Source: a virus
DNA length: 36,314 nucleotides
Virus record (IMG/VR): IMGVR_UViG_3300005468_000041
Location: 1-36,314 of that record
Reading direction: 5' to 3' (one strand)
A model generated the notes under the pieces. The model was not told where the DNA came from. It saw nothing but the letters and a program-made list of their open reading frames with translations, and searched no databases. Positions 1-35,292 of the stretch are shown here, piece after piece (position 1 is the stretch's first letter; each line of letters begins with the position of its first letter). The position numbers and the translations under genes were made by a program.

Positions 1-936
1 ATTCCTGGCGGTGTTGATGTCGTCGTGTTCCAACGAACCACGCATCGTTACCTCGCGCAGGCGGTGAAGATTCTTCGTAAGAAGGGCATCACCGTCGTCA
101 TCGATGTGGATGATGATCTTAGCACGATTCATCCAAGCAACCCCGCATGGATGGAGCTCCATCCACGTCGCTCGAAGACCATGGGTCCAGATGGTCAACC
201 GCACATGCATTCTTGGGCGAACATGGAAGCCGCGTGTCGTGAGGCTTCCTTCATCACCGCAACGACACCCGCGCTCCTCAAGAAGTACGCACCCCATGGA
301 CGTGGTGCTGTGGTGCCGAACTACCTGGCACATCACTACTATGAGCACTCGCACTTTGACTCAGACGTGATTGGCTGGCCCGCCTCATTGGGCTCTCACC
401 CGAACGACCCCGATGCGGTGGGCAACGCCATCTCTCGTCTCGTCGATGAAGGTGCACACTTTCACGTTGTGAGCATTTCACCCGGTGTGGGTAAGGCATT
501 CGGACTGTCCAGTGAGGATGACCTCACGCAACTTCGCACGCCGATCGCACTGAATAACTGGCCACGCGTGTTGGCTGATCAGCTTGGCATCGGCATCGCT
601 CCACTCGCTGACACCAAGTTCAATGCAAGCAAGTCGTGGCTTAAGCCACTTGAGATGTCGGCCGTTGGCGTGCCTTGGGTCGCATCCCCTCGTGAGGACT
701 ACAGCCGTTTGCACAAGCTCGGTGCTGGCTGGCTCGCGGAGAAACCGAGCGACTGGTACAGGAAGCTACGCGCCTTGCGAGGGAGTGCTGAGCTTCGAGC
801 TGACTTGGCCGGTAAGGGTCGGGAAGTTGCCGAGACGTTGAAGCTGGAAGACAACGCGTGGCGGTGGTGGGAATCATGGCGCACAGCTATTACGAGCGAC
901 ATGAGCTACGACTACCGTCCGATCGCCATTCTCTAG
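1..936 (+). CDS. GT-B type glycosyltransferase, 5' partial
   Basis: The frame is open from base 1, so the start lies upstream; 311 residues are visible. The first residues read IPGGVDVVVFQR, followed by a KGITVVIDVDDDL segment. This hydrophobic strand ending in an acidic DVDDDL is typical of the phage glycosyltransferases related to GT4 (GT-B fold). The C-terminal half has the usual nucleotide-sugar-binding shape: GIGIAPL, then KSWLKPLEMSAVGVPWVASP, like the E-containing motif of GT4 enzymes. In actinophages, genes of this family lie near structural genes and probably glycosylate virion proteins. That role is inference; this protein is distinct from the candidate DNA glycosyltransferase at 12147-10843. 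It is the only rightward gene in the left part of the window and probably closes a late operon. It ends just before a strong terminator. Confidence 0.8.
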   Translation: MPGGVDVVVFQRTTHRYLAQAVKILRKKGITVVIDVDDDLSTIHPSNPAWMELHPRRSKTMGPDGQPHMHSWANMEAACREASFITATTPALLKKYAPHGRGAVVPNYLAHHYYEHSHFDSDVIGWPASLGSHPNDPDAVGNAISRLVDEGAHFHVVSISPGVGKAFGLSSEDDLTQLRTPIALNNWPRVLADQLGIGIAPLADTKFNASKSWLKPLEMSAVGVPWVASPREDYSRLHKLGAGWLAEKPSDWYRKLRALRGSAELRADLAGKGREVAETLKLEDNAWRWWESWRTAITSDMSYDYRPIAIL

Positions 937-4852: not shown

Positions 4853-4956
4853 AATGCGCGTTCAAGTTATCACTGATGACCGTCAGTGGTCTCGCACACG
4901 CACCGGGAGCGGTCACTCCCTAAGTTCATTCCTCGTTTTCTGACGAGGCGAACCTG

Positions 4957-5026
4957 TGGGCCCGGGAGGACTTGAACCTCCCACCTTCCCGTTGTCGAGA
5001 TGCTCATCCCTGTGAGCTACGGGCCC
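4957..5026 (-). ncRNA. tRNA-like element with a 4-nt anticodon loop
   Basis: Apart from the anticodon loop this is a textbook tRNA: acceptor GGGCCCG/CGGGCCC (7 bp), TA at 8-9, D-arm GCTC-ACAGGGAT-GAGC, variable region AGGTG, T-arm GGAGG-TTCAAGT-CCTCC, discriminator A. The anticodon arm is TCTCG-ACAA-CGGGA, a 5-bp stem closed by only 4 nt. The total length is 70 nt, three short at exactly this place. It cannot present a normal anticodon. The scaffold is so well kept that selection for a non-decoding role is worth considering. Confidence 0.7.
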
Positions 5027-6911: not shown

Positions 6912-8147
6912 CTAGACAGTAACAGGTTGGCGTACAAGTTGTACACTAGCGGGGCGATGAGATTCTTTCTTGATCAACCATTCACGGTCGCCAACGAGCT
7001 CGCCACCATCTGGACCTCGTTCACCGTCCAGTGCAGCCTTGGCTTGCTCGCCGATCCATCGACCACATTGGGTTGAAATCCCCTTGCCCCAGGTCGCCTT
7101 CAGTGTTGCATTGTGACGAAGTGGATAGATGTTCCAGTCATCCGGGAAACCCATGATGCGTGCAACTTCACGGTGAGAGATGAAGCGGTTTTGCGTGGGG
7201 TGGAGTACGAGGTCCAGTGCACCACCCGTGATAACGCGTGCTGATCGTGAGTTGTCCCACCTCGTCACCGAGATGAATCCCATGTGGAAATCCTTGCGAA
7301 GAAGCTTCTCCTTCATGTAGTCCCACGATGGAGGGAGCTTGTTGTACTTGTTATAGAAGTACTGAGCGAACCTGCCGACGTGCCAACTCTGTGGCCAGAC
7401 CTCACCGTGTTGCAACCCCAGGTGTAGCAGGTCGAGAGTCCGTCGATGCGCGACGCCTGTCCGCGTTGTATGCCCGTCTACGCTGCTGGTTCTCTCGCGA
7501 GGCTTCTCTGACCACCAGGAGGCAGGTTGCCGATAGGGCTGCGGAAGCCAGGTCTGAGGGAGGTTCTCGATGTCACCAATGATATCGGGCAAAAGTGGCA
7601 CTCTGATGCTCGATGGGTACTCAACACTGAACGGAAGCTGTGATGCCACCCAGAAGTAACGCTTACGAACTGCCGCACCGCCAAGTTCGAGTGCATCGTG
7701 CATCACGTGATAAAGCCCGTACTTGAGTCCGCTCTTTTCCTCAAGATTCGCACGAAGCTCTTGCATGAGGACACGACCCTTGGAGTACGCCGGACGCACA
7801 GACTCCATAATGACGATTTGCGGCTTCATACGTGCTGCGTAGTCGGAGAGTGCCCACATACACTCGCTGACCTTGGCATCAACACCACGATGCTTCTTGT
7901 CCGTCATTACAGACCAAGCAGAGCAAGGCGGGTTAGAAGTCAGCACTTCAGCATCTTTCACGATCCACGTTTTTGGGTCACCGACTTGCGAGGTCCAGTG
8001 TTGCCCGAGCACACCACGATTCGCTAGGCAGTTCGGCATACCGAAACCGCCCTTTTGCTCCACTTTGTGCACAAGTTCGAAGCCCGCCTCGACCATGCCG
8101 ACGTCAAAGCCGCCCGCGAAGGTTTGTGACGCGACGAACTTATACAC
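6912..8147 (-). CDS. DNA (cytosine-5-)-methyltransferase family protein
   Basis: 411 residues with the C5-MTase order: motif I QTFAGGFDVGMVEAGFE (SAM binding, residues 8-24); motif IV TSNPPCSAWS with catalytic C75; motif VI as IVIMESVRP (residues 111-119), where ESV replaces the usual ENV; motif VIII as RKRYFWVA; the target-recognition region ~180-330; motifs IX-X as REVARIMGFPDDW and GKGISTQCGRWIG (variant of GNSV). The GTG start at 8147 has AGGAG upstream, overlapping the stop of the MazG-like gene. As the last enzyme of a sugar-activation operon in a phage that may carry modified cytosine, it might methylate residual cytosines, protect early DNA, or act on a modified base. Sequence specificity cannot be read from here. 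No partner restriction enzyme is visible. Confidence 0.88.
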   Translation of the reverse strand: MYKFVASQTFAGGFDVGMVEAGFELVHKVEQKGGFGMPNCLANRGVLGQHWTSQVGDPKTWIVKDAEVLTSNPPCSAWSVMTDKKHRGVDAKVSECMWALSDYAARMKPQIVIMESVRPAYSKGRVLMQELRANLEEKSGLKYGLYHVMHDALELGGAAVRKRYFWVASQLPFSVEYPSSIRVPLLPDIIGDIENLPQTWLPQPYRQPASWWSEKPRERTSSVDGHTTRTGVAHRRTLDLLHLGLQHGEVWPQSWHVGRFAQYFYNKYNKLPPSWDYMKEKLLRKDFHMGFISVTRWDNSRSARVITGGALDLVLHPTQNRFISHREVARIMGFPDDWNIYPLRHNATLKATWGKGISTQCGRWIGEQAKAALDGERGPDGGELVGDREWLIKKESHRPASVQLVRQPVTV

Positions 8148-8155
8148 GCTTACTC

Positions 8156-8752
8156 CTAAATATTCCTGCGTGACTGACCGCAGTAGACTTGGCGACTTAC
8201 GTTATTAGGATCTGTCGCGGCGTAGCAATCAACCGTGTCTGCATAATCACGTGCACATCCAGGACACGTCACTTCAGTGTTGACGATGAACATATCTGTC
8301 TCGCCGCAAAATGCAGGCGTGCCACTTACACGAGGCTCGGCAGGCGTGCAGATGAGAACATCCTCGTAAGCACGCTTACAGCCAGGACACTTCGTTGACA
8401 CGCCGTCGTACGTGCCACTGGACATGCGATCCCGGTTCACCTGCTGCTTGGCCTGGTAGGCAGCCTGCCACTCTTCGTCGGTGATGCCGATGGCGGTGAG
8501 AATGTTGGCCAAAAAGTGGCCAACGTCAACTGCTTCCTTCAGCGCGAGTTCACGATTGACCCAACCGCGTGGTTGCGCCCAGGTCTTCCATCCAAATTCA
8601 CTGAGGAGTTCGCCAGCCTCAAGCACGAGTGCCGAGTGATTCCACGTCACATAATCAGCGAGTGCATCACCCTCAGGAAGCGGAAGTTTAAAGCCAAACG
8701 ACTTTTCCTGGAGTTCCTTCGTCGAAGCGAGCCACTCCCAATTGTCACTCAC
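8156..8752 (-). CDS. MazG/dimeric-dUTPase-like NTP pyrophosphohydrolase with two zinc knuckles (candidate dCTPase)
   Basis: From GTG 8752 (GAGGAGA upstream, overlapping the SIS gene stop in GTGAGTGA) the protein has 198 residues. The N-terminal ~110 residues are all-alpha with the pattern NHSALVLEAGELLSEFGWKTW (ExxELL, metal-binding acidic helix) and ALKEAVDVGHFLANIL (EAxDxxHF), the arrangement of dimeric dUTPases and the MazG/dCTPase superfamily. Two CPGC knuckles follow (TKCPGCKRAYEDV, VTCPGCARDYADT), each with further Cys. In T4 the functional equivalent gp56 hydrolyses dCTP and dUTP so that only modified cytosine is incorporated. The location among sugar and cytosine-modification genes makes dCTP removal the favoured role (inference). 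A plain dUTPase or house-cleaning MazG remains possible. Confidence 0.7.
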   Translation of the reverse strand: MSDNWEWLASTKELQEKSFGFKLPLPEGDALADYVTWNHSALVLEAGELLSEFGWKTWAQPRGWVNRELALKEAVDVGHFLANILTAIGITDEEWQAAYQAKQQVNRDRMSSGTYDGVSTKCPGCKRAYEDVLICTPAEPRVSGTPAFCGETDMFIVNTEVTCPGCARDYADTVDCYAATDPNNVSRQVYCGQSRRNI

Positions 8753-9338
8753 TTGCGATCTTCTCCTCGTACTTCTCGTGAAGCGTTCCACCTGGGTGAT
8801 AAGACCCAAGTTGTTCAGTGGTGAGTGCATCAGCGACATTACAGACGAGCGTGTTGAGGATCGCCAACTGGACCGCCACCGATACTGTAGGAATGGTTCC
8901 GTGCTTTGAACCATCCTCATCGATTTTGTACGTTAGTGCGATATTACACCGCTCAGCCAACTCACTTTGATGGTTACCCGTTACCGCTGCAGTGATGATG
9001 CTTCCATTACTGCTGTGCAATTCAGCAATGTGTTGTGCGTCAAGCACCTCCTCAGTCTGTCCAGAGTGGCTGATGAAGATAATGACGTTGCGATCAATCC
9101 GCGAGATCGTCCCGAGGCCACCGTGTAGAAAATCAGTGGTGTGGATTGCGGAAGCGTGGTAACCCACCGATTGCAAGAGTGACGCGCCTAGCTGCGCTAC
9201 TCCAAACGACTTACCAACACCAGTAAGTGTCACAACACCGGTGAGTTCGATGCGTTCACGAAGTTGCTTGACAACTTTATCATCGATATTGTACTCGAGC
9301 TGCCTAAGCGCATAAATCGTCTTGCTGATGACGTCCAC
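8745..9338 (-). CDS. kdsD-like: SIS-domain sugar-phosphate isomerase, KdsD/KpsF-like (candidate D-arabinose-5-phosphate isomerase)
   Basis: 197 residues forming one SIS domain: TGVGKS (39-44), LHGGLG (71-76, as LHGDLG in KdsD), SHSGQTEE (90-97, the phosphosugar-binding Ser/Thr loop) and C-terminal HPGG (181-184, the signature of KdsD/GutQ/KpsF). It lacks the CBS domains of E. coli KdsD, like known short Ara5P isomerases. The expected reaction is D-ribulose-5-P to D-arabinose-5-P. The GTG start at 9338 overlaps the stop of the nucleotidyltransferase gene (TAGTG) with AGGAG 10 nt upstream, so the two are translationally linked. There is no LPS/KDO context here, which points to the isomerase feeding a pentose into the adjacent nucleotidyltransferase and glycosyltransferase. 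A GmhA-like heptose role is the alternative; HPGG argues for KdsD. Confidence 0.8.
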   Translation of the reverse strand: MDVISKTIYALRQLEYNIDDKVVKQLRERIELTGVVTLTGVGKSFGVAQLGASLLQSVGYHASAIHTTDFLHGGLGTISRIDRNVIIFISHSGQTEEVLDAQHIAELHSSNGSIITAAVTGNHQSELAERCNIALTYKIDEDGSKHGTIPTVSVAVQLAILNTLVCNVADALTTEQLGSYHPGGTLHEKYEEKIASE

Positions 9339-10846
9339 TAGCCCACAATCTCCTTAATCAGTTGAACACCGCGTGAAATCATGACTTCACGTTCACGCGG
9401 ACTGTGGAGTGGTGCACCCGCGAGAAGAAGGCAACCTTCAGCGACTTGAAGCTGTTCAAGCGAAAAGTATCCCTCAAGAAACTCATCCATAGCTTTGATT
9501 TCATCAGCACGATCAGGCATCAGCACATTGTCATTATAGAACAAATTGTGTGTGATCGCTGAGAATCCGGCATGGTACGAGTACCGCAACTTCGCGATCT
9601 CATAGATCAGCGGCATGAACGGTGTGCCGCGTGGATCTACAAGCTTGCACGTACCTGTGTTGATGGAGTAAAGGATGTTGTTGAAGTTCAAATCACCGTG
9701 CGCACGCACCATTGATGCTGAGGTAAACACCTCACTTGCGCGCTCAAGCAAATCAAAATGACGCGTCGCGAGCGCGTGATCAAGAGTGGTGAGTCGCTCA
9801 AGTGCTTTACCTGCGAACCATGATGCCACCCGAACTGCACTTGCAACTTCGTTATAAGACTTGATTGACCACCATAGATCATGATCAAGACGGTCGGTCA
9901 CAGACTGGAGAATCTGGACCCACGTATCGGGCCTCCCAGGCCAGTAGAGCCACAGTTCTGAGAGCGTAGGTAGATCGACGTACTCCATCGCATACCCACC
10001 GTCGAGTACACTACCGAAGTACCTCGGAATGAGGTTTGCCGACCTGTCTCCCATGGCCGATTGCTCAATCAGCCAATTTCGCTGTGCTGCGAACTGCTCT
10101 CCAGTGCCTCTCTTCGTAATAATACCTGCATCATCTAGTGAAAGCGTGTGCTCAGACCGCGCGATGAATCGGGTTCGACGTGCAATTGCGAGAGCGTGCA
10201 CATCGCCAATGTCGAGCCACGTTGGAAACGCAATGGTTCTCGCAGTAGGGAAGCACGAGAGAAGTGGTCCCATGCCCACTTCATGCTCGTCGTTCAAGTT
10301 GGCGCGTGTCATTACCGTGCTGGCTTCACTGAGTAGCTCGATGGTGTCGGCAAAGTGGTATGCGCCAATGGTAACTGAATCCGCTACACGCACCTGCTTA
10401 TCGACATACGTGCCATCATCTTCGCGCACACAAAATGAACGACTACCAACTGGTGTAAGTGCTTCACCGATCCACGTTCCCGAGTGTCGATCAAGCTTTT
10501 CCTCGATGAATGTGTCACTCATCAGAACGTACGTGTCGTGCTTGTGACGCTCTGGGCCCAATGCGTGCAGGCCTACGAGGATTGCATCCACCGGACCACG
10601 TGAAACGTTTTGCGGTACGACCTTGATGTCGTAATGCCCAGCGCGCTCGAGTGCAGTCTGGACCTGGATGTGCGTGGCCGGATTTGCCACGACGATGATG
10701 CGCACGCAATTAGCGGCACGCATCAACTCGATTTGGTGAAAGAGGTGAGGACGTTGGCCGATGGAAACGAGTGCTTTGCTGATCTGTGTTGAGAGCGGTC
10801 CGAGACGTGATGCCTTACCGCCGGCGAGAATGATTCCGTTGCTCAC
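9338..10846 (-). CDS. Fused sugar nucleotidyltransferase and APH-type kinase
   Basis: 502 residues with two domains. Residues 1-~235 are a nucleotidyltransferase: GIILAGGKASRLGPLSTQISKAL (the GGxxxRLxPLT...K pyrophosphorylase signature), VLMSDT (metal-binding Asp), FPTWLDIGD near the domain end. Residues ~260-502 resemble aminoglycoside/choline kinases: AHGDLNFNNIL (catalytic loop, H383-D385) and LVDPRG (Mg-binding D404). This combination could phosphorylate C1 of a sugar phosphate and transfer a nucleotide to give an NDP-sugar, as the separate HddA/HddC enzymes do for heptose. With the Ara5P-isomerase-like neighbour, an NDP-arabinose is the natural guess. The GTG start at 10846 overlaps the glycosyltransferase stop (GTGA). 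Substrate and nucleotide are inferred. Confidence 0.78.
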   Translation of the reverse strand: MSNGIILAGGKASRLGPLSTQISKALVSIGQRPHLFHQIELMRAANCVRIIVVANPATHIQVQTALERAGHYDIKVVPQNVSRGPVDAILVGLHALGPERHKHDTYVLMSDTFIEEKLDRHSGTWIGEALTPVGSRSFCVREDDGTYVDKQVRVADSVTIGAYHFADTIELLSEASTVMTRANLNDEHEVGMGPLLSCFPTARTIAFPTWLDIGDVHALAIARRTRFIARSEHTLSLDDAGIITKRGTGEQFAAQRNWLIEQSAMGDRSANLIPRYFGSVLDGGYAMEYVDLPTLSELWLYWPGRPDTWVQILQSVTDRLDHDLWWSIKSYNEVASAVRVASWFAGKALERLTTLDHALATRHFDLLERASEVFTSASMVRAHGDLNFNNILYSINTGTCKLVDPRGTPFMPLIYEIAKLRYSYHAGFSAITHNLFYNDNVLMPDRADEIKAMDEFLEGYFSLEQLQVAEGCLLLAGAPLHSPREREVMISRGVQLIKEIVG

Positions 10847-12147
10847 AGATCGAGTCGCCTCTCAATGGTAGTGACACAACGCTGACGTTCGAGTTCACGC
10901 TTGAAGTGTTCGTACTGGACCCTCGCCAGCCACTCGTACGTGGAACGCGATGTCTTGACTGCCTGGACCTTACGTGCGAGATCAGCAGGATCTTTGATGC
11001 GAAGCCACTTGTGCAAGTTGACCATGTCATCTGAGTAACGATCACCGTTGGGGAACAGAATATGATCCTGCGTGTCATAGAGTGGGTGAAAGAAACAGAT
11101 GATGCCCGTGGCAAATGATTCCCATGGCTTTGCTGTCGCCCATCCTGATCCAGAGGATGGGGTGGTGAAGGTGCACTTTGTCGTCTGCATCAAGTTGAAG
11201 ATTTGGTTGTATGGGATTGGGTTGATTTCGGTGTTGAGCTTTGCTAGCGAGTCTTTCGACCAGGTGCCATGAACCCAAGAAGGTCCGAGTGGTCGAACGT
11301 AGTGTTCCATGGCATGGAGTCGAGTGAGTTCGGGTCGCATACCATAGTTGCGTGCCTCGTTGATGAGGATTCCGAAATCGTGATCTCGATCTTCCCACCC
11401 GGCTGGAGCTTCCTCACCAAATCCTCGAGGAATCCCGACGAGTTCGAGTCCGGATCCCACGTAAGTATCAGTCGTTCGCCACCGCTCTCCCATACCTTCG
11501 GCTCGTGCGTTAAACGTATCGAAACCGTGTTCTTGGGGAGTCCTAGTGTCGCCATAACGCTCATTCCACTCGTCACGGGTCCAGTCGAACTGGCACAACA
11601 CGGGATGACGCCGAGGCCACGCAAGATCACGAGACTTCAAGTAGTTGCGAGCATCAGGAAGAAGCCATACTTCCTCACGCTTTAGAGGATCAACATCACG
11701 CCACCGGTTGATTCCACGTGCAATGAACGACACGTACTCAACGAATGAGATTTGTGGGCTCGTGACGACGTTGCGGTTGTCCACCCTGGGAATGGGCGAG
11801 TTGCTTGTGCCGTGCTGTCCAAGCCAGAACACCATGCCATCGAGTGAATCGAACGTTGGGCCGGTGACACGGTCTAGCCGATCGATGCGATCTTGCAGTG
11901 ATGCCTTTGCGTGAGAGCGTGCTTCGGCTCGCCACTCTTGCCACGGATTCGTGATGTTAGGCATGTGTGGCGCCCAACCGGAGTTCTTTCCGACGACGAC
12001 GAATTCGACGTCAGGATTGCGAGTGGCTAGTTGCTCAAGTAGATACGGCGGCTCATTATCTCCACCGGATTCACCCCACTTTTTCGGGTTAATCTCAATG
12101 ACTCGTCCTAGCTTCCCATACCCAACACGCTTACGAAACGTAGGCAT
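10843..12147 (-). CDS. GT-B glycosyltransferase, candidate DNA (arabinosyl/pentosyl) transferase
   Basis: 434 residues from ATG 12147 (AAAGGAC 7 nt upstream; an in-frame TTG at 12177 lies before that ribosome site and is rejected). The start MPTFRKRVGYGKLGRVIEINPKKWG looks like a GT-B N-terminal beta-alpha unit. The middle has PDVEFVVVGKNSGW and GMVFWLGQHG. The C-terminal donor site reads TPSSGSGWATAKPWESFATGIICFFHP followed by a DPADLARKV helix, similar to GT4-type nucleotide-sugar-binding regions. It heads the operon GT - nucleotidyltransferase/kinase - SIS isomerase - MazG-like - C5 methyltransferase, with overlaps at each of the first junctions. Clustering with sugar activation and the dCMP-hydroxymethylase-like enzyme suggests it glycosylates hydroxymethylated (or hydroxylated) cytosine in DNA. 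It could alternatively glycosylate virion protein or host surface. Confidence 0.72.
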   Translation of the reverse strand: MPTFRKRVGYGKLGRVIEINPKKWGESGGDNEPPYLLEQLATRNPDVEFVVVGKNSGWAPHMPNITNPWQEWRAEARSHAKASLQDRIDRLDRVTGPTFDSLDGMVFWLGQHGTSNSPIPRVDNRNVVTSPQISFVEYVSFIARGINRWRDVDPLKREEVWLLPDARNYLKSRDLAWPRRHPVLCQFDWTRDEWNERYGDTRTPQEHGFDTFNARAEGMGERWRTTDTYVGSGLELVGIPRGFGEEAPAGWEDRDHDFGILINEARNYGMRPELTRLHAMEHYVRPLGPSWVHGTWSKDSLAKLNTEINPIPYNQIFNLMQTTKCTFTTPSSGSGWATAKPWESFATGIICFFHPLYDTQDHILFPNGDRYSDDMVNLHKWLRIKDPADLARKVQAVKTSRSTYEWLARVQYEHFKRELERQRCVTTIERRLDL

Positions 12148-12198
12148 ACAGTTCGTCCTTTCCGAATGATCTGTCAATTCCTCAACGCGCAGCGGGGC

Positions 12199-12307: not shown

Positions 12308-12988
12308 CTAGATGGGCATCTCCGGCGGAGGCGGCGAGCTATCCGCAGGTGCGGAGACCTCCTCAGCAGACGGTGCCGGCTCGACCGGGGCAACTATCGG
12401 CGTAGCAGCCGGAGGTGCCACCGGGGCAGGCTGAGCCACCGGAGCGGGCGGCTGAGCCGGAGTCGGCGGCGCGACAGGCGCAGGAGGTGCAACCGGAGCC
12501 GGAGGTGCAACCGGACCAGACGAGACAGGAGGTGCGATAACGGGACCGGCGCTTGGCATCCCCGCGACGGGCGCACCGGTGTAGGGCTTCACGCCCTTGA
12601 CCTCATTGCGCATTTCACCGCCCCACTCCTTTTGGCCCAAAGTGAGACGAGCACGACGGCCAGTGAGAGCACCAGCGACAGGCTCGAGACTTCCAGCCGG
12701 ACCAAGCTGTGCGAAGAACTCATCGGTGAGACCGAAGCACTTCATCTGACGGAAGAAGATCGAGACAGCAATCGCATTGTCCAAGGAGAGCACGAAGTTG
12801 TTGATGATCGGACGGTTCATATGCGGGCCGGAGATGACCTTCATCTTCGCCTTGAGCATCGGCTTGCCGTTGCCCGACGTCACAGCATCACAGGCGGTGA
12901 CTTCGATGTCGTAGTCACCGTTGGGAAGAGGTTCGAAGCTGACTGTCTTCGCATCAGCAAGAGCCTTGCTGAAGTCAATCGTGGTCAT
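12308..12988 (-). CDS. ssb-like: DUF669-like ssDNA-binding protein with long Pro/Ala tail
   Basis: 226 residues. The N-terminal ~130 residues (FEPLPNGDYDIEVTACDAVTSGNGKPMLKAKMKVISGPHMNRPIINNF) fit the OB-like DUF669 family of phage ssDNA-binding proteins: LPxGxYxVxV, a GKPML strand, and a GRxxxxxF-like strand. From ~140 the protein is almost pure Pro/Ala/Val (PAPVAPPAP repeats) ending in an acidic tip, SAEEVSAPADSSPPPPEMPI, as SSB tails do to recruit partners. It overlaps the RecA/Sak4-like gene by ATGA and has GGAG upstream. In actinophages this gene normally follows the Sak4-like ATPase, supporting a recombination and replication role. Confidence 0.72.
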   Translation of the reverse strand: MTTIDFSKALADAKTVSFEPLPNGDYDIEVTACDAVTSGNGKPMLKAKMKVISGPHMNRPIINNFVLSLDNAIAVSIFFRQMKCFGLTDEFFAQLGPAGSLEPVAGALTGRRARLTLGQKEWGGEMRNEVKGVKPYTGAPVAGMPSAGPVIAPPVSSGPVAPPAPVAPPAPVAPPTPAQPPAPVAQPAPVAPPAATPIVAPVEPAPSAEEVSAPADSSPPPPEMPI

Positions 12989-18432: not shown

Positions 18433-20229
18433 CTATTCTACCTCTCCCCAACGTTGCCCGACACCAATTGATGAAGTGATGGGAACTGTAAGTAGCTGAT
18501 CGTCATTCATGACGAGTTCAATGGTGCGCATGACGTCATCGAAATCATCATTAGGAATGTCAAAGTCGATCTCGTCGTGCACTGGAATTGTCATGTACGG
18601 TCCAAGTCCGGCGGCATCAGCTTCCACGATCTTCATCTTAAGAATCTCGCCTGCTGTTCCCTGGATTTCATAGTTAACCAGGGTGTACAGCTTACCTGCA
18701 TCAGCGGTGTGCTTACGTCCAGTGAGTGGCGAACGTACATATGCTTCACCGGTCAAGTTGAGATTGGCACGACCTTCACTCTCAACTTCCTTAATCCATT
18801 CGGGGACTCGACTATACATTTTGTCAAAGTCCCGCATGAATTGTCCGGCTTCATCTTCAGGCACACCTGCGGTCTTAGCAAATTTCGGGATGCCTGCGCC
18901 ATAGATCTTCGCATAGCCACCGTTCTTAAGCAGCTGCCTACGAGGATCTGCCTTTGTGAAACTCGGCTCGTGAAAAAGTTGCACACCCATGTTAACGAAG
19001 AAGTCACCGGGCGTCATAAACGCAGCAATCATCCCCGGGTCTTGGGACATATGCGCCATGACCCGCATTTCGATCTGCCCAAAGTCGGCCTTGGCCCACC
19101 GGTGATCAATTGATGCAGTGAAGCAGTTGCGAATTTTTCGCCCGAACTTAGTCCTGATTGGGACATTTTGTAGATTAGGGTCACTCATCGACATGCGACC
19201 CGTGCGAACACCAGAGCCACCACCAGGCTCGAATGGGTTCTTATCGGTGCCACCCACGGTGTTGATCGATGGATGGATCTTGCCATCCCACTCCGACATC
19301 GTAAGATAGTTTGCCAGGTAGGTCGACACCATCTTCTGCGCACGCCGGCGGTTGAGAACAGTTGCTGCTAGCGGGTGGTCAATGCTCTCGAGAACCTCCT
19401 TGTCTAGTGAGTATTGACCACCACCGGTCATCTTGGTGAACTCGACTCCGAATGACTGAAGCTTTTCGATGACCTTTGCATTGGCACCCGGTGAGATGCC
19501 GTGAACGTCATGACACCACTTCTCGGCCGACTTCACATATGCATCGAGTTCATCCATCAACTTTTGCGTGTACTCACGATCGACAACGACGCCTTTGTTC
19601 TCCATGCGTCGAGCGACCCATGACACCGCAAGTTCAAGTTCGTATGACTTAGGTGCCTCAGCCATCACCCGTGGATAGAGCTCGTCCTTGAGCTGCATGG
19701 TGAGGATGGTGTCAAGCCCACCATACATCCAATAGGCTTCAAGATCGATCGGCACGGTGGCCCAGTTCCAGCCACCTGCCTTCATCGCATCGTCCAGTTG
19801 ATGCTGGAAGTTGCCTGCGCGCCTATCGACCAGACGACGAGTAAGAGTCTTGAGTGCTGTGGAGCCGGTTGATTCGAGCACGTGCGACATAAGTCGAGTG
19901 TCATGACATCTGGACTCAGGCAACGACACGCCGAGAGTTCCTCGGATCATGTCCGCGTCGTACGTTAGATTGTGCGCGACGAATGTGCCTTGGAATCGTT
20001 TGAGCATATCCGCGCCGAATGCACCCCACCCGGGAAAGTCGATGGGAATGCAGTACGCGGTTTGGCGATCGCCAAATTGGAGGAGCCGAACCTTATCAAT
20101 AAGTGTGCGCAAACCTGTGCCTTCGGTATCGACGGCAATCTCATCGCACGTCGACATCCAGCGTTGACACTCCCACGCGGTCTCGATGTTATCGATCAGA
20201 TGAATGCCCTTGACTTCATCAAGACTCAA
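18433..20229 (-). CDS. polA-like: DNA polymerase I-family replicative polymerase with 3'-5' exonuclease
   Basis: 598 residues, the short phage form without a 5'-nuclease. Exonuclease: IAVDTEGTG (D34, E36), AHNLTYDAD (D91), YWMYGGLDT (D173). Polymerase: motif A KADFGQIEMR (D382), motif B RRQLLKNGGYAKIYG (R431, K435, Y439), motif C IPVHDEIDFD (H551-D552-E553). The residue equivalent to Phe762 of E. coli Pol I is Tyr, as in T7 polymerase. The start is TTG 20229 with AGGAG 6 nt upstream. If the cytosine-modification proposal is right, this enzyme must accept 5-substituted dCTP. It opens the replication operon after a tiny membrane gene. Confidence 0.95.
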   Translation of the reverse strand: MSLDEVKGIHLIDNIETAWECQRWMSTCDEIAVDTEGTGLRTLIDKVRLLQFGDRQTAYCIPIDFPGWGAFGADMLKRFQGTFVAHNLTYDADMIRGTLGVSLPESRCHDTRLMSHVLESTGSTALKTLTRRLVDRRAGNFQHQLDDAMKAGGWNWATVPIDLEAYWMYGGLDTILTMQLKDELYPRVMAEAPKSYELELAVSWVARRMENKGVVVDREYTQKLMDELDAYVKSAEKWCHDVHGISPGANAKVIEKLQSFGVEFTKMTGGGQYSLDKEVLESIDHPLAATVLNRRRAQKMVSTYLANYLTMSEWDGKIHPSINTVGGTDKNPFEPGGGSGVRTGRMSMSDPNLQNVPIRTKFGRKIRNCFTASIDHRWAKADFGQIEMRVMAHMSQDPGMIAAFMTPGDFFVNMGVQLFHEPSFTKADPRRQLLKNGGYAKIYGAGIPKFAKTAGVPEDEAGQFMRDFDKMYSRVPEWIKEVESEGRANLNLTGEAYVRSPLTGRKHTADAGKLYTLVNYEIQGTAGEILKMKIVEADAAGLGPYMTIPVHDEIDFDIPNDDFDDVMRTIELVMNDDQLLTVPITSSIGVGQRWGEVE

Positions 20230-20373: not shown

Positions 20374-21066
20374 CTAGAGAAGTTCGGCGTGCACCTGCAC
20401 CCCGAGCTGATGAAGTAGACGAGTACCACTGTCGTCACGGTACTGTGCTGCTGCGACAACGCGAGTGATTCCCGCGTTCACGATCAATTTAGCGCAATCC
20501 AGACAGGGTGCCATTGTCGTGTACAACGTAGCACCGTCGGTTGACACGCCATTCTTCGCGGCGAATGCGATAGCATTGGCCTCGGCGTGTACGCTGAATC
20601 GGCAAGGTTGCCTTGAGTTGCAGTCAGCCCAATGGTGCTTGGGATCAGGGTTCGTCGGAAGCTTTGTGCAGTCGCATGCGTGATTGCAGTGTGGAAGTCC
20701 GGTCGCGGTGCCGTTGTATCCACTGGACACTGGTCTCGTCTCAATGACGATGACAGCACCGACCTGCGCGCGTGAGCAGGTGGCACGATCGGCCATCAGC
20801 TTCGCCATTTGCATGAGCGTCTGGTCCATCGAGGGACGGGTCTTTTTCACAGGCAACTTGGAATGTTCACGAAGTGCTGCGATGGCAGCTGTGCGGGTTG
20901 TGCAGAAGAATGGAGACTTGTATCCTTGCACCGAACTCCATGCGTAGTGCTTTTCTTTTGCACCACTTGGCAATATCACGTTGACTTGCCACACGAAACC
21001 GATTGGCTTCGTCTGCGCATCATCTTCATAGATGCGTTGTTCGTTGATGTTATCTTCGTCACTCAC
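20374..21066 (-). CDS. dcd-like: dCMP deaminase family protein
   Basis: 230 residues. The zinc-dependent deaminase core is HAEANAI (H160, E162) and APCLDCAK (C188, C191), with a second Cys/His-rich region before it (HCNHACDC, C127-C133) like the structural zinc site of phage dCMP deaminases. An ~80-residue N-terminal extension precedes the catalytic domain. The reaction would be dCMP to dUMP, feeding ThyX (34606). The GTG start at 21066 overlaps the TGA of the thymidylate-synthase-family gene. Sharing an operon with the dCMP-hydroxymethylase-like enzyme suggests the two partition one dCMP pool; T4 has a comparable pair. Confidence 0.85.
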   Translation of the reverse strand: MSDEDNINEQRIYEDDAQTKPIGFVWQVNVILPSGAKEKHYAWSSVQGYKSPFFCTTRTAAIAALREHSKLPVKKTRPSMDQTLMQMAKLMADRATCSRAQVGAVIVIETRPVSSGYNGTATGLPHCNHACDCTKLPTNPDPKHHWADCNSRQPCRFSVHAEANAIAFAAKNGVSTDGATLYTTMAPCLDCAKLIVNAGITRVVAAAQYRDDSGTRLLHQLGVQVHAELL

Positions 21067-21932
21067 GCTGACACCACGTTTTCATTGGGAAGAAGTGTTT
21101 CGATCAGGTCGAGCTGTTTGGTGTACCATGGGTTGGCTTCATCTTCCTCCTGCGTGGTGTTGCCTTCAAGGAGATATGCTGCGACGTCCAGTGATGATGT
21201 CGCACGATCTGCTGAGCACACACCAAGTGGCAGATCGATGAATACGAAATCAGTTGGTGCATGAAGCTTGCTCGCTGCTTCGATGTCACGCTCGTAGATG
21301 TGCAGACTCGTCGTGTGATGCACGTATCTGCCTACTGGCATGTGCAGTTCGTATGCAATGGTGTGTTGAAGTTGCGTGAACATAAAGAAGTCATACGGTA
21401 CACCCAACCACACGTCTTGGCTGCGCATATGCGTGTGCATTTCGAGAGCTGGAAAGCCGTGACCACTTTCACGGATGAGGAACTGAAAGAACACGGTGCA
21501 CGGCTTGTCACCGATGTGCCGTAGGTCAGCCTTGGTCCAGATGACTGCGATGGCTTGCCTACTGGACGGATCCTCCTTGAGGAGTTCGATGCAATCCGCA
21601 AGTTGCTGCACCACGCGAGGTCCGTAAGCGCCGTAGTCGGGATCCGTAGCATCTACCAGGACGTTTTCGAACGTCGGAGCGGCTACCCTGACCAAATCAG
21701 AGCGTGGAGTTCCAGAGATGAGCTGGAGCGCTTCAAGTGCCGCAAGCTTCAAGTTCACACCGCGGCCAACACCGACTGGAAGCAGTGGCTCAAGGGTGTT
21801 GGGAACAATCAACGTCACTGCAGTGAGTTCGCGCGTGGGAATTCCACGTGCTGAAACGCTCTCGCCCTTATTGATGATGTGGTTGACCAACTTGACGTAG
21901 TCGCCACGTAGGTCGTTCAGCTTCAGTTCCAT
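21063..21932 (-). CDS. Thymidylate-synthase-family enzyme, predicted dCMP hydroxymethylase (or related C5 modifier)
   Basis: 289 residues with the ThyA fold signature: SRQAIAVIW (R125), KPCTVFFQF (catalytic C145), MRSQDVWLGVPYDFFMF (R170, D173, D181), LHIYERD (H211, Y213). The position equivalent to Asn177 of E. coli thymidylate synthase, which selects dUMP, is Asp (D181 in GVPYD). In T4 dCMP hydroxymethylase the same position is Asp, and it recognises cytosine. The substrate is therefore probably dCMP, giving 5-hydroxymethyl-dCMP with methylene-tetrahydrofolate. A separate ThyX covers dTMP, freeing this gene for the new role. Its start follows the kinase gene directly, and its stop overlaps the deaminase start. 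Products other than hydroxymethyl (hydroxyl, methyl) are possible. Confidence 0.82.
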   Translation of the reverse strand: MELKLNDLRGDYVKLVNHIINKGESVSARGIPTRELTAVTLIVPNTLEPLLPVGVGRGVNLKLAALEALQLISGTPRSDLVRVAAPTFENVLVDATDPDYGAYGPRVVQQLADCIELLKEDPSSRQAIAVIWTKADLRHIGDKPCTVFFQFLIRESGHGFPALEMHTHMRSQDVWLGVPYDFFMFTQLQHTIAYELHMPVGRYVHHTTSLHIYERDIEAASKLHAPTDFVFIDLPLGVCSADRATSSLDVAAYLLEGNTTQEEDEANPWYTKQLDLIETLLPNENVVSA

Positions 21933-22897
21933 CAGAGCCTTTCAACACGATCATAAAAATCTGTCCGACCGCGACCGAGAATATCGTTCACGTATGTCGA
22001 ACCTGTGCTGTGCTTGAAGCGACGAATGAATTGGGGGTGTGACACCGGCCAGTCAGCCCAGTGCGCAGCTTTGAATGCTTTGCGCCCAAGAGCAACCGAC
22101 GTAGGCCTGTCGAGCATATGACGTAGAAGATCGATGTCATCCACATCGCATGCGTTAACAATACCCATCGAGCGAAGCTCACGGATGTCAGCGTGTCGCG
22201 CGAGTGCATTAGTGAGGAAATGTCCAGAGGTGGACTGATACGGCATGAACGCAGGCCGAGGATCAGATGCAGAAGCATCAGGATCGACATGATGTCGCAC
22301 GTCACCGATAAGAAGCATGCGCGGTGATGGTGGACCGATATACGTCGTGAATGGATTTAGCTTCACGGCCGCTGTCGACTCAATGCCTGCACGGTGAATG
22401 ATTGCTTGGATCGTGTCATCAATCACGTGCCGACCATCCACGTTGACGATAGGCAAGAGACTTGTCATCGCAACGATCTCGTACAATTCATTGAGTTGAT
22501 GTCCCTTGCCTGCTTCGATGAGATCATCACCACGACGAGAGATGCACTGATCAAGTACACGATCGTTAGCTGACACGTGCACGATGATGGCACCACGTGA
22601 ACGCAAGAACATCTCGATGTGAAGACGAACACCGTCATCCATAAGCGTTGGACGGTTCAACACTGTGGGGTAAACACTTTCACCCCAATGCCAACGATCA
22701 CAGATGATGTGGTGACCTCGTTGCGGACGATAGTCCAGCAGGGGTGTTTCATACTCGTCGAGTGGATGTACTTCCGGTGGACCCTTATGGAGAAGAGTCA
22801 CGGTGTTATCGGGAAATCGCTTCTCGAGTTCACACGCTAGTTTGCTCGCAAGAGTTGATTTTCCGCTGCAATCCGGCCCTTCCAATATGATAAGCAT
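21932..22897 (-). CDS. Deoxynucleoside monophosphate kinase fused to a uracil-DNA-glycosylase-like domain
   Basis: 321 residues. Residues 1-~180 are a thymidylate-kinase-type P-loop domain: MLIILEGPDCSGKSTLA (Walker A), IICDRWHWGESVY (the DRW/DR-Y motif) and SRRGDDLIEAGK (lid-like). Residues ~190-321 form a second domain: MLLIGDVR, a TSGHFLTNAL segment, SMGIVNACD, VALGRKA and VSHPQFIRRF, which resembles the uracil-DNA glycosylase superfamily order (N-terminal strand loop, central NAC, C-terminal HPxxxRR). A kinase for modified dCMP would be needed to make the triphosphate, and the second domain may recognise a base. Both roles are inference. ATG at 22897 has AAGGAAAG upstream. Confidence 0.72.
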   Translation of the reverse strand: MLIILEGPDCSGKSTLASKLACELEKRFPDNTVTLLHKGPPEVHPLDEYETPLLDYRPQRGHHIICDRWHWGESVYPTVLNRPTLMDDGVRLHIEMFLRSRGAIIVHVSANDRVLDQCISRRGDDLIEAGKGHQLNELYEIVAMTSLLPIVNVDGRHVIDDTIQAIIHRAGIESTAAVKLNPFTTYIGPPSPRMLLIGDVRHHVDPDASASDPRPAFMPYQSTSGHFLTNALARHADIRELRSMGIVNACDVDDIDLLRHMLDRPTSVALGRKAFKAAHWADWPVSHPQFIRRFKHSTGSTYVNDILGRGRTDFYDRVERL

Positions 22898-26452: not shown

Positions 26453-27631
26453 TTAGTCACCCTTCACATTGAGAATCTGGTGAAGCGTGTGCTTGATGGT
26501 GACAAGATCAATCGAGTCGGCCATCACGACGTCGATGTCCTTGTACGCACCGGGGATTTCATCGACGAACGCTGCACTGTCGCGGTACTCGATGCCCTTC
26601 ATTGCTTCACGCAGGTCGTCATGCGTGAACATCTTTCGCGCAGTGGAACGCGAGAAGTTGCGCCCAGCGCCATGAGGTGAAGAGTCAAGGGACATGTAGT
26701 TACCCTTGCCCTGGACCACATACGATGCTGTCCCCATGGAACCAGGGATGAGACCCATCTTTCCCGCGGTGGCATCGATGGCGCCCTTGCGCGACAGCCA
26801 CACCTGCTTGCCGAAATGCTTCGCGGATGTGGTGTAGTTATGATGGCAGTTGATGGTCTCTTGCACCTCGATTGATTCGCCTGACCACTCCTCGACGCAC
26901 AGCATGAGACGATCCATCATTTCTTCGCGATTGAACCACGCAAACTCCTGGGCCCATCGCATTTCACGGATGTACGCCCAGAACTCCTTATCACCTTCGA
27001 CGAGGTATGCAAGATCCGGGTTGGGTAGGTTGATCCAACGCTTCTCACACTGCTGTGCCGCAATCTTGATGTGTCGCTGCGCGATCTTGTTGCCAACACC
27101 ACGTGAGCCCGAGTGGAGAAAGAGCCACACGCGATCCATTTCGTCGATGGTGATCTCGATGAAGTGATTGCCACCACCGAGTGTGCCGAGCTGAAGCTTC
27201 CAATTCGATGCATATGCGTCTGGATCGAACTCAGCTGACTCGAGAGCCTTCATCTCGAGGATGTCCGTGCGTAGCTTGGCGGTGTTGGTGAGTTGCGTGT
27301 TGTACTTACCGGCTGAGGTCGGGATGGTCGCTTCGATCAGTTCGCGAAGCGCCGTAAGAGACTTCTCGGATTCCGTGAAGTCATGTTTGGTGAATTGTGT
27401 ACGCACTGCGATCATGCCGCAGCCGATATCCACGCCGACCGCCGCGGGCATGATGGCACCGAGAGTTGGGATAACACTGCCGACGGTGCTTCCACGCCCA
27501 AGATGCGCATCAGGCATGAGAGCGACGTGTGGAAAGATGAACGGCATCGTTGAAGTCTGCTCGGCCTGCTTGCGTGTCTGGTCTTCGAGAATGGACGCGA
27601 AGTTGACGAGCTTATCGTTGATCTGTTCCAC
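26453..27631 (-). CDS. rtcB: RtcB-type RNA ligase
   Basis: 392 residues covering the whole RtcB family: MPDAHLGRGSTVGSVIPT, AVGVDIGCGM (metal-binding C71), GTLGGGNHFIEI, HSGSRGVGN, NCHHNY, LIPGSMGT-SYVV and SPHGAGRNFSR (the His that takes GMP). The enzyme joins RNA 3'-phosphate or 2',3'-cyclic-phosphate ends to 5'-OH ends using GTP and Mn2+. These are exactly the ends left by anticodon nucleases and many toxin RNases. In a phage with its own tRNAs it probably repairs tRNAs cut by host defence (inference). GTG 27631 has AGGAG 9 nt upstream. No archease partner is visible. Confidence 0.95.
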   Translation of the reverse strand: MEQINDKLVNFASILEDQTRKQAEQTSTMPFIFPHVALMPDAHLGRGSTVGSVIPTLGAIMPAAVGVDIGCGMIAVRTQFTKHDFTESEKSLTALRELIEATIPTSAGKYNTQLTNTAKLRTDILEMKALESAEFDPDAYASNWKLQLGTLGGGNHFIEITIDEMDRVWLFLHSGSRGVGNKIAQRHIKIAAQQCEKRWINLPNPDLAYLVEGDKEFWAYIREMRWAQEFAWFNREEMMDRLMLCVEEWSGESIEVQETINCHHNYTTSAKHFGKQVWLSRKGAIDATAGKMGLIPGSMGTASYVVQGKGNYMSLDSSPHGAGRNFSRSTARKMFTHDDLREAMKGIEYRDSAAFVDEIPGAYKDIDVVMADSIDLVTIKHTLHQILNVKGD

Positions 27632-34476: not shown

Positions 34477-34609
34477 GGAATTGCACTGGTCAATCGGTGA
34501 TCACGATGAGCAAGATGAAGTGAAGACGCCGTGTGCCTGGTGCCAAGAGCCTGACGGCGATGACTGTCGTTGCTACGCTGAGCAAGATGAAGAGGAGTAC
34601 GCACGGTGA
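34469..34609 (+). CDS. 46-residue acidic CxxC protein
   Basis: GTG 34469 has AGGAGG 5 nt upstream, a convincing ribosome site. The product has PCAWCQEPDGDDCRCYAE, four Cys in two CxxC/CxC pairs (probable zinc), within a strongly acidic chain (DHDEQDE, EQDEEEYAR). Its TGA overlaps the ThyX start codon. Confidence 0.6.
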   Translation: MPRELHWSIGDHDEQDEVKTPCAWCQEPDGDDCRCYAEQDEEEYAR

Positions 34610-35292
34610 AGGTTGACCTGCTCGCGTTCACGGCTATCACGCCTACTGCACTTGAGGTCTTGGAGTACCAGCGAGGAACAGCAGCGGCCGATCACCTTGC
34701 GGAACTCGGTGGCCGCGAATGCTACCAGTCTTTTCACCGGCCTAATCCGAAGACGTCGGACAACGAGGATTACCTCAAGCACATTCTCGAGATTGATCAC
34801 ACGTCAATCATGGAACACTCGAGCGCGACGTTCCGCATCACCTTCGTGAGTAGGAATTTGCTTGTTGAGCTGACCCGTCACAGGCATCTCTCGTTCTCGG
34901 TCCAGTCACAGCGTTACGTCGACGAGTCGCATGGTCAGATGATCATTCCACCGGACATCATGGGAGATACGGCACTCTCTGGACTTGTGGAGAAGATTGA
35001 TCACTTCCATCAGGACGCGAAGATTCTTTACGATGAGATCGTTGATACGATGATGAAAGAGGGCTACAAGCGCAAGCAGGCAAGGCAAGCGGCCAGGGCC
35101 GTGCTCCCAGGTGGGCACGAGACGCGCATCATCGTCACGGGAAACATTCGCGCGTGGCGACACGTAATTCACATGCGCTTTAGCGAGCACGCTGATGTGG
35201 AGATTCGCGAGATGGCCAAGCAAATTCTTGGACACTTGCGCATCATCGCACCGAACCAGGTGCAGGATATCAGCGACGATCCTCGTCAGTGA
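34606..35292 (+). CDS. thyX: Flavin-dependent thymidylate synthase ThyX
   Basis: 228 residues. The ThyX signature RHRxxSxxxxSxR is present as RHRHLSFSVQSQR (~91-103); flanking conserved pieces are IDHTSIMEHSSATFRI and the C-terminal HMRFSEHADVEIREMA. It makes dTMP from dUMP with methylene-tetrahydrofolate, FAD and NADPH. It complements the dCMP deaminase at 20374-21066, which supplies dUMP, while the ThyA-family protein seems retargeted to dCMP. GTG 34606 overlaps the upstream stop (GTGA). It contains one dispersed heptamer (34900). Confidence 0.95.
   Translation: MKVDLLAFTAITPTALEVLEYQRGTAAADHLAELGGRECYQSFHRPNPKTSDNEDYLKHILEIDHTSIMEHSSATFRITFVSRNLLVELTRHRHLSFSVQSQRYVDESHGQMIIPPDIMGDTALSGLVEKIDHFHQDAKILYDEIVDTMMKEGYKRKQARQAARAVLPGGHETRIIVTGNIRAWRHVIHMRFSEHADVEIREMAKQILGHLRIIAPNQVQDISDDPRQ

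Follow-up and report, generated by a model that had tools for sequence, protein, structure and literature searches.

The gene at 21063-21932 of a 36,314-nucleotide viral stretch (IMG/VR record IMGVR_UViG_3300005468_000041, called the window here) probably encodes a folate-dependent dCMP hydroxymethylase that feeds DNA glycosylation by a sugar cassette downstream, and we put the probability of this whole explanation at about 75%. The enzyme itself is of a known kind; what is new is a hydroxymethylase together with an exchangeable, arabinose-type sugar slot. The enzyme gene and the nucleotide and replication genes first needed here are:

21063..21932, minus strand: predicted dCMP hydroxymethylase of the thymidylate synthase (TS) superfamily (D181 selects the base, D142 activates water, C145 is the nucleophile)
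21932..22897, minus strand: P-loop nucleotide kinase, thymidylate-kinase-like, candidate hmdCMP kinase (phrog_761)
20374..21066, minus strand: dCMP deaminase (PF00383, phrog_174)
18433..20229, minus strand: family A DNA polymerase (PolA), a 598-aa ORF
34606..35292, plus strand: ThyX, flavin-dependent thymidylate synthase (PF02511, E=4e-48)

The enzyme is read from the minus strand as 289 amino acids with an ATG start, and its ends agree exactly with those in the initial annotation, which gave no strand; the plus strand across 21063-21932 has stops throughout. The product matches PF00303 (Thymidylat_synt) at E=4e-26 and passes the curated cut-off. The GVPYD motif on which the initial annotation was built is residues 177-181 of this ORF, and the catalytic residues that it listed (C145, R170, D173, H211 and Y213) are all present in the alignment with E. 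coli ThyA and others. Further residues are E67, Y103, R125 and S171, equivalent to E. coli E58, Y94, R126 and S167, and G177. MAFFT alignments place D181 on E. coli N177 and T4 gp42 D179, as had been proposed, and a phmmer alignment agrees, matching it to Asp229, the residue introduced in the L. casei N229D mutant (entry 1njc). D181 is no chance change: it is kept in 56 of the 57 aligned sequences, all viral relatives included, and the exception is E. coli ThyA itself. From this sequence evidence the protein is almost certainly a cytosine-specific TS-fold protein.

The initial annotation took Asp at this position as the hallmark of dCMP hydroxymethylases. The choice of cytosine over uracil holds up, while hydroxymethylation does not follow from this Asp, which is common to three natural product classes: Asp181 alone indicates only cytosine specificity because it is also found in dCMP-methylase-type relatives and in the flavin-dependent dCMP 5-hydroxylase of RB69. 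The residue deciding hydroxymethylation is Asp142, equivalent to T4 Asp145 and absent from the initial annotation. In T4 dCMP hydroxymethylase Asp145 lies three residues before the catalytic Cys and activates the water that forms the hydroxymethyl group, thymidylate synthases have Leu there, and the D145N mutant is dead (PMC6400193). The active-site stretch of our enzyme reads D142-K-P-C145, with an acidic residue three before the nucleophile; this residue is Asp in T4, SPO1 gp29 and MilA, and Leu in ThyA. The residues at positions 181 and 142, taken as a pair, follow the known products: N/L in E. coli ThyA (dTMP), N/D in SPO1 gp29 (hmdUMP) and D/D in T4 gp42 (hmdCMP). The studied enzyme has D/D, and its product is very probably hydroxymethylated, as judged from these residues.

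The enzyme works like T4 gp42 but falls outside the T4 subfamily. A Ser or Thr at the place of T4 Ser94, beside Asp145, is among the residues put forward as a hydroxymethylase signature, and the T4 S94A mutant retains ~25% activity (PMC6400193). Where T4 has Ser94-x-Tyr96 our enzyme reads G101-A-Y103; Gly or Ala stands at position 101 in 50 of the 57 aligned sequences, and SPO1 gp29 has Ala. Because of this Gly101 we file the enzyme in the pyrimidine hydroxymethylase branch, with which it shares the TS fold, the catalytic Cys, Glu, Tyr, Arg and His/Tyr set and the acidic residue three before Cys. T4 gp42 is only about 20% identical; further differences are a longer C-terminus, an unrelated polymerase and another branch of the tree.

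The AlphaFold model of the enzyme has a pLDDT of 93.8 (33-sequence input). Among the 50 VIA matches listed, the best solved one is MilA, the CMP 5-hydroxymethylase of Streptomyces (Z 27.2, 269 aligned, 3.0 A), which has the base-selecting Asp (Asp186) as well as the Asp three before Cys; T4 gp42 is not among these 50. MilA belongs to secondary metabolism rather than to a phage, and it changed the deoxy-type residues to Lys133 and Ala176, so preferring CMP (PMC5175136). In place of this MilA/BcmA pair our enzyme has R125 and S171, the dCMP type.

Copies of the enzyme are found in other contigs, 97% identical in two and identical in a third. Relatives are encoded in 569 candidate IMG/VR stretches, and every distinct one that was aligned has the D/D pair; judged by sequence, the D/D enzyme looks common in IMG/VR. 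As a separate observation, a protein of Pseudoxanthomonas phage PW916 called a deoxyuridylate hydroxymethyltransferase (L122:3280-4098) has the D/D pair as well, in MRSSDVWLGVPYD and KDVPC, and is for that reason predicted to act on dCMP rather than dUMP.

The kinase gene overlaps the start of the enzyme gene by 1 nt and the deaminase gene overlaps its stop by 4 nt. After the deaminase come genes for PolA, RuvC, a helicase, a PD-(D/E)XK exonuclease, a Sak4/RecA-like protein and an SSB-like protein. The C-terminal ~140 aa of the kinase (21932-22360, minus strand) match no Pfam or PHROG family, and by eye their motifs recall the uracil-DNA-glycosylase fold. The MetaGPA 5-carbamoyloxymethylcytosine system resembles the window in having a TS homologue with Asp177 and a dCMP deaminase in cytosine-modified phage contigs (PMC8670742). 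That system has a carbamoyltransferase and none was recognised in the window; the 598-aa ORF at 18433-20229, where one was expected, is PolA.

The initial annotation had also reasoned that a separate ThyX makes an ordinary ThyA redundant. ThyX is indeed in the window, but the argument is soft: ThyX was detected in only 2 of 14 relatives of the same type, which are fragments. Its presence is compatible with the hydroxymethylase reading and is not strong evidence for it. A WhiB transcription factor (PF02467, 3590-3937, minus strand) indicates an actinobacterial host. The phage also carries an RtcB RNA ligase (PF01139, E=2e-115, 26453-27631, minus strand) and tRNA genes, one of which, found by ARAGORN at 4956-5026 on the minus strand, has an unusual two-base anticodon (ca).

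The sugar cassette lies 9 kb from the enzyme gene, past the SSB-like gene, in a slot with the following genes and borders:

12308..12988, minus strand: SSB-like protein (DUF669), upstream border of the slot
10843..12177, minus strand: GT-B glycosyltransferase-like protein (GT, 444 aa), from a model of moderate confidence
9338..10846, minus strand: sugar nucleotidyltransferase fused to an APH-like kinase (NTase-kinase; HGDLNFNN ... DPRG)
8745..9338, minus strand: SIS-domain protein of the arabinose-5-phosphate isomerase family (phrog_5670, E=8e-22; TIGR00393)
8156..8920, minus strand: all-alpha dNTP pyrophosphatase, dUTPase_2 family, candidate dCTPase
6912..8147, minus strand: C5-cytosine DNA methyltransferase family protein (PF00145), downstream border of the slot

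The GT, NTase-kinase and isomerase genes mutually overlap by 1-4 nt. The pyrophosphatase ORF shares 176 nt with the isomerase gene, so its true start is probably further in. The GT scores 23.8 bits in Pfam, below the cut-off of 25, and its model is of moderate quality (pLDDT 63.8, 5 sequences). The first VIA match of this model is T4 BGT (1j39, Z 17.9, 307 aligned, 4.0 A), which gives it a GT-B fold; other high matches are BshA (17.5), T4 AGT (15.9) and the HY126 phage glycosyltransferase (15.2). The model supports a GT-B sugar transferase, and its fold and gene context suggest that it acts on DNA. With LC53 and TG1 as RB69-type comparators, the NTase-kinase is homologous to the LC53/TG1 and RB69-type proteins (about 21% identity) and co-linear with those of LC53 and TG1 over about 500 aa, with 26 invariant columns. 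The isomerase falls in the GutQ/KdsD family and is 24-25% identical to those of LC53 and TG1. Both the SIS isomerase and the NTase-kinase fusion of the RB69-type arabinose donor pathway are thus present. A HAD phosphatase is present in the RB69-type cassettes and in those of Enterococcus phage 9183 and Pseudoalteromonas phage XG4; none was found by tblastn, with few and diverged queries, in the window or in the related fragments G002, G003 and G009. Near the contig edge there is a second glycosyltransferase-like ORF (25-936, plus strand) with a weak Glyco_trans_1_2 match.

The C5-methyltransferase has the motifs NPPC, ESV and RKR, and a counterpart with 35-91% identity comes after the slot in almost every relative. 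Carboxymethyl transfer of the CmoX type was considered for it, but it has NPPC where the CmoX-like enzyme has SPPC (PMC12783734). It sits oddly with DNA wholly substituted by 5-hydroxymethylcytosine (hmC), which should not be its substrate; perhaps the substitution is partial, or perhaps the methyltransferase does other chemistry.

Examination of about 20 viral contigs shows the order kinase-TS-deaminase-PolA-...-SSB conserved. Actinomycetia phage DSL-LC01 and Gordonia phage Phendrix belong to these, their enzymes being annotated merely as thymidylate synthases. DSL-LC01 and Phendrix/GodonK share the order with RecA before SSB, and the D181/D142 pair was read in DSL-LC01 and Phendrix. In the loci examined, the slot between SSB and the dCTPase and methyltransferase genes always holds a GT, and its other content varies. 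Four genomes (the window, G002, G003 and G009) have GT, NTase-kinase and isomerase. In G005 the GT stands with a sugar epimerase and an RGP-family protein, which exceeds the Pfam cut-off for this UDP-arabinopyranose-mutase family. In G007 it stands with a UDP-sugar dehydrogenase, an epimerase and a protein homologous to the RGP one of G005 (34% over 292 aa). Two chemically different routes, possibly to an arabinose donor, therefore accompany the same GT group. The DSL-LC01 slot has another GT and a UDP-galactopyranose mutase, and a second GT clade, accompanied by other NTase sets, occurs in G004, G006, G008 and G010. The G007 slot also contains a protein with the 5-hmdU DNA kinase helical domain (PF18723, L116:7599-8561), hinting at a further step on the hydroxymethyl base.

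The identities to the window show that the slot is exchanged as a module. G004 is close in the core (TS 67%, PolA 76%, methyltransferase 68%) and distant in the GT (33%), and G003 is the reverse (TS 43%, PolA 37%, methyltransferase 35%, GT 57%). The GTs of the isomerase cassettes form one clade (100%) and the TS proteins beside them are scattered over three clades, from which it follows that the GT moves with its sugar genes and apart from the base-modifying core. The deeper nodes of the GT tree are weak (42-62%), and only its 100% isomerase-cassette clade and its 97% cupin/HAD clade were used.

The best surviving alternative accepts the dCMP hydroxymethylase and has the cassette decorate the capsid, the tail or the host wall, leaving the phage DNA with plain hmC. 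SIS/NTase/GT sets do occur in phages within glycan clusters that have no TS gene close by, for example in Synechococcus phage S-SRM01, and Phendrix, with a hydroxymethylase core and no sugar cassette detected, fits this picture. We nevertheless consider it unlikely, given that the cassette lies between the replication genes and the dCTPase and methyltransferase genes in every relative examined and that the GT most resembles DNA glucosyltransferases. In XG4 and Enterococcus 9183, moreover, the same NTase-kinase and GT types adjoin hydroxymethylase genes: XG4 has HAD, NTase-kinase and GT directly behind a T4-type hydroxymethylase, and 9183, a relative of Enterococcus phage VFW, has this trio at the place where a D181/D142 homologue adjoins the b-gt gene in VFW. 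PvuRts1I cuts VFW DNA, which resists both MspI and bisulfite conversion, and the authors concluded that it contains glycosylated hmC (PMC4999554). VFW is an independent experimental anchor for a D/D enzyme beside a sugar slot. The VFW/VPE25 and 9183 phages differ from the window in identity (about 30%), in their low-GC Gram-positive host and in their polymerase, and no SIS isomerase was seen in the Enterococcus phage stretch read. A hydroxymethylated base that is glycosylated in the DNA itself is thus, in our judgement, likely.

It is very unlikely that the enzyme is instead an FAD-dependent dCMP 5-hydroxylase of the RB69/AfhB type, leading to arabinosyl-5-hydroxycytosine. RB69 DNA was first said to carry arabinosyl-hmC (PMC6024577), and the base was later corrected to arabinosyl-5-hydroxycytosine, made via a TS-superfamily 5-hydroxy-dCMP synthase (PMC13390438). 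AfhB of phage HY126, almost the same protein as RB69 ORF048c, has the structures 9iqc and 9iqu, titled as a riboflavin-dependent monooxygenase with dCMP and FAD, and as a dCMP hydroxylase. AfhB has the same fold and base-selecting Asp as our enzyme, and the T4-like RB69/LC53/HY126 phages pair it with the same isomerase and NTase-kinase partners and a GT-B transferase. The residues differ: in RB69, LC53, TG1 and PspYZU05, D142 is replaced by E, D173 by N and G177 by V, and the W175/F185/Q189 pattern is lacking, whereas our enzyme keeps the folate-type D142, D173 and G177. Its structure is also nearer to MilA than to AfhB (Z 23.0, 217 aligned), with ThyA at about 21, and the tree puts the RB69 clade (100%) apart from the 31-sequence clade that holds the window, VFW and SPO1 gp29 (90%). 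With D142 present and D173 and G177 kept, unlike in the RB69 type, hydroxymethylation of dCMP is well supported.

Slimmer still is the chance that the enzyme is a dCMP methylase making 5-methyl-dCMP. Asp at this position alone makes L. casei TS a dCMP methylase (N229D; Liu & Santi 1992, as cited in PMC8670742). Natural examples may be the "thymidylate synthases" of Salmonella phage SE13 and Microbacterium phage Didgeridoo, which have Asp181 with Leu or Ile at 142 (L123:3471-4355, L124:2980-3891); this pairing makes them predicted dCMP methylases, with possible 5-methylcytosine genomes. Against a methylase, D142 of our enzyme is polar, and acidic as in T4, and S209 and the non-Pro residue at 101 also follow hydroxymethylases. 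Tetrahydrofolate (THF) is oxidised in methylation and not in hydroxymethylation. A DHFR gene adjoins the Didgeridoo enzyme gene, and none was found in the window with the one query protein used; this hint is as expected of hydroxymethylation, which does not oxidise THF.

An ordinary or degenerate thymidylate synthase, as all databases and most phage annotations would have it, is hardly credible for an enzyme that lacks Asn177 in all alignments, falls short of the NCBIfam thymidylate synthase equivalogs (71 bits against a cut-off of 327, and 67.6 against 108), shares the window with ThyX and has a D/D pair conserved in all close relatives, which excludes decay. The dCMP hydroxymethylase proposed in the initial annotation is still the best reading, on account of D181, D142 and the surrounding nucleotide and sugar genes, which lie beyond the region it covered.

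From the ORF, fold, residues, synteny and module exchange, all established computationally, we infer the catalysis, the incorporation, DNA as the acceptor and the sugar. Asp181 would select cytosine and Cys145 would add to C6 of dCMP; methylene-THF would deliver one carbon, and a water activated by Asp142 would trap the exocyclic methylene to yield 5-hydroxymethyl-dCMP. The residues for these steps are in the alignment, and the chemistry is modelled on T4 gp42 and MilA. The adjoining kinase probably raises 5-hydroxymethyl-dCMP towards the triphosphate, the phage PolA would incorporate it, the dCTPase-like enzyme and dCMP deaminase would drain unmodified dCTP and dCMP, and ThyX would supply dTMP. 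The SIS isomerase would convert ribulose-5-phosphate to arabinose-5-phosphate, the NTase-kinase fusion would turn this into an NDP-pentose, and the BGT-like GT-B enzyme would glycosylate the modified base in DNA. In T4, gp42 likewise belongs to a cytosine-modifying gene context with dCTPase-like, dCMP deaminase and kinase genes; the T4 toolkit for replacing dCTP by hmdCTP and decorating it is the window's gene set, here with an arabinose-type donor pathway.

The base is predicted to be a 5-(pentosyl-oxymethyl)cytosine in which the pentosyl group is most likely arabinosyl and may be in furanosyl form; that the sugar is arabinose is a reading we favour by a little. Nothing specific to actinophages came out of the literature searches on hmC or sugar modification, and arabinosyl-5-hydroxymethylcytosine, though proposed, is shown in no phage in the literature searched. 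The broader proposal, at about even odds, is an actinobacterial phage group with 5-hydroxymethylcytosine DNA and an exchangeable GT/NDP-sugar cassette at a fixed locus, which here would make arabinosyl-5-hydroxymethylcytosine.

The residues give a rule by which hundreds of phage "thymidylate synthases" could be re-annotated: N or D at position 177 means U or C, and L or D three before Cys means methyl or hydroxymethyl. If the proposal is true, the arabinosyl-hmC first proposed for RB69 becomes directly testable in another lineage. The proposed DNA disguise is like that of phage T4, apparently with a different, exchangeable sugar. HmC-based hypermodification would then be a modular trait in phages of Actinobacteria, in which the base chemistry is constant and the sugar is exchanged as serotypes are, and this would explain the co-diversification of host modification-dependent restriction and phage DNA chemistry.
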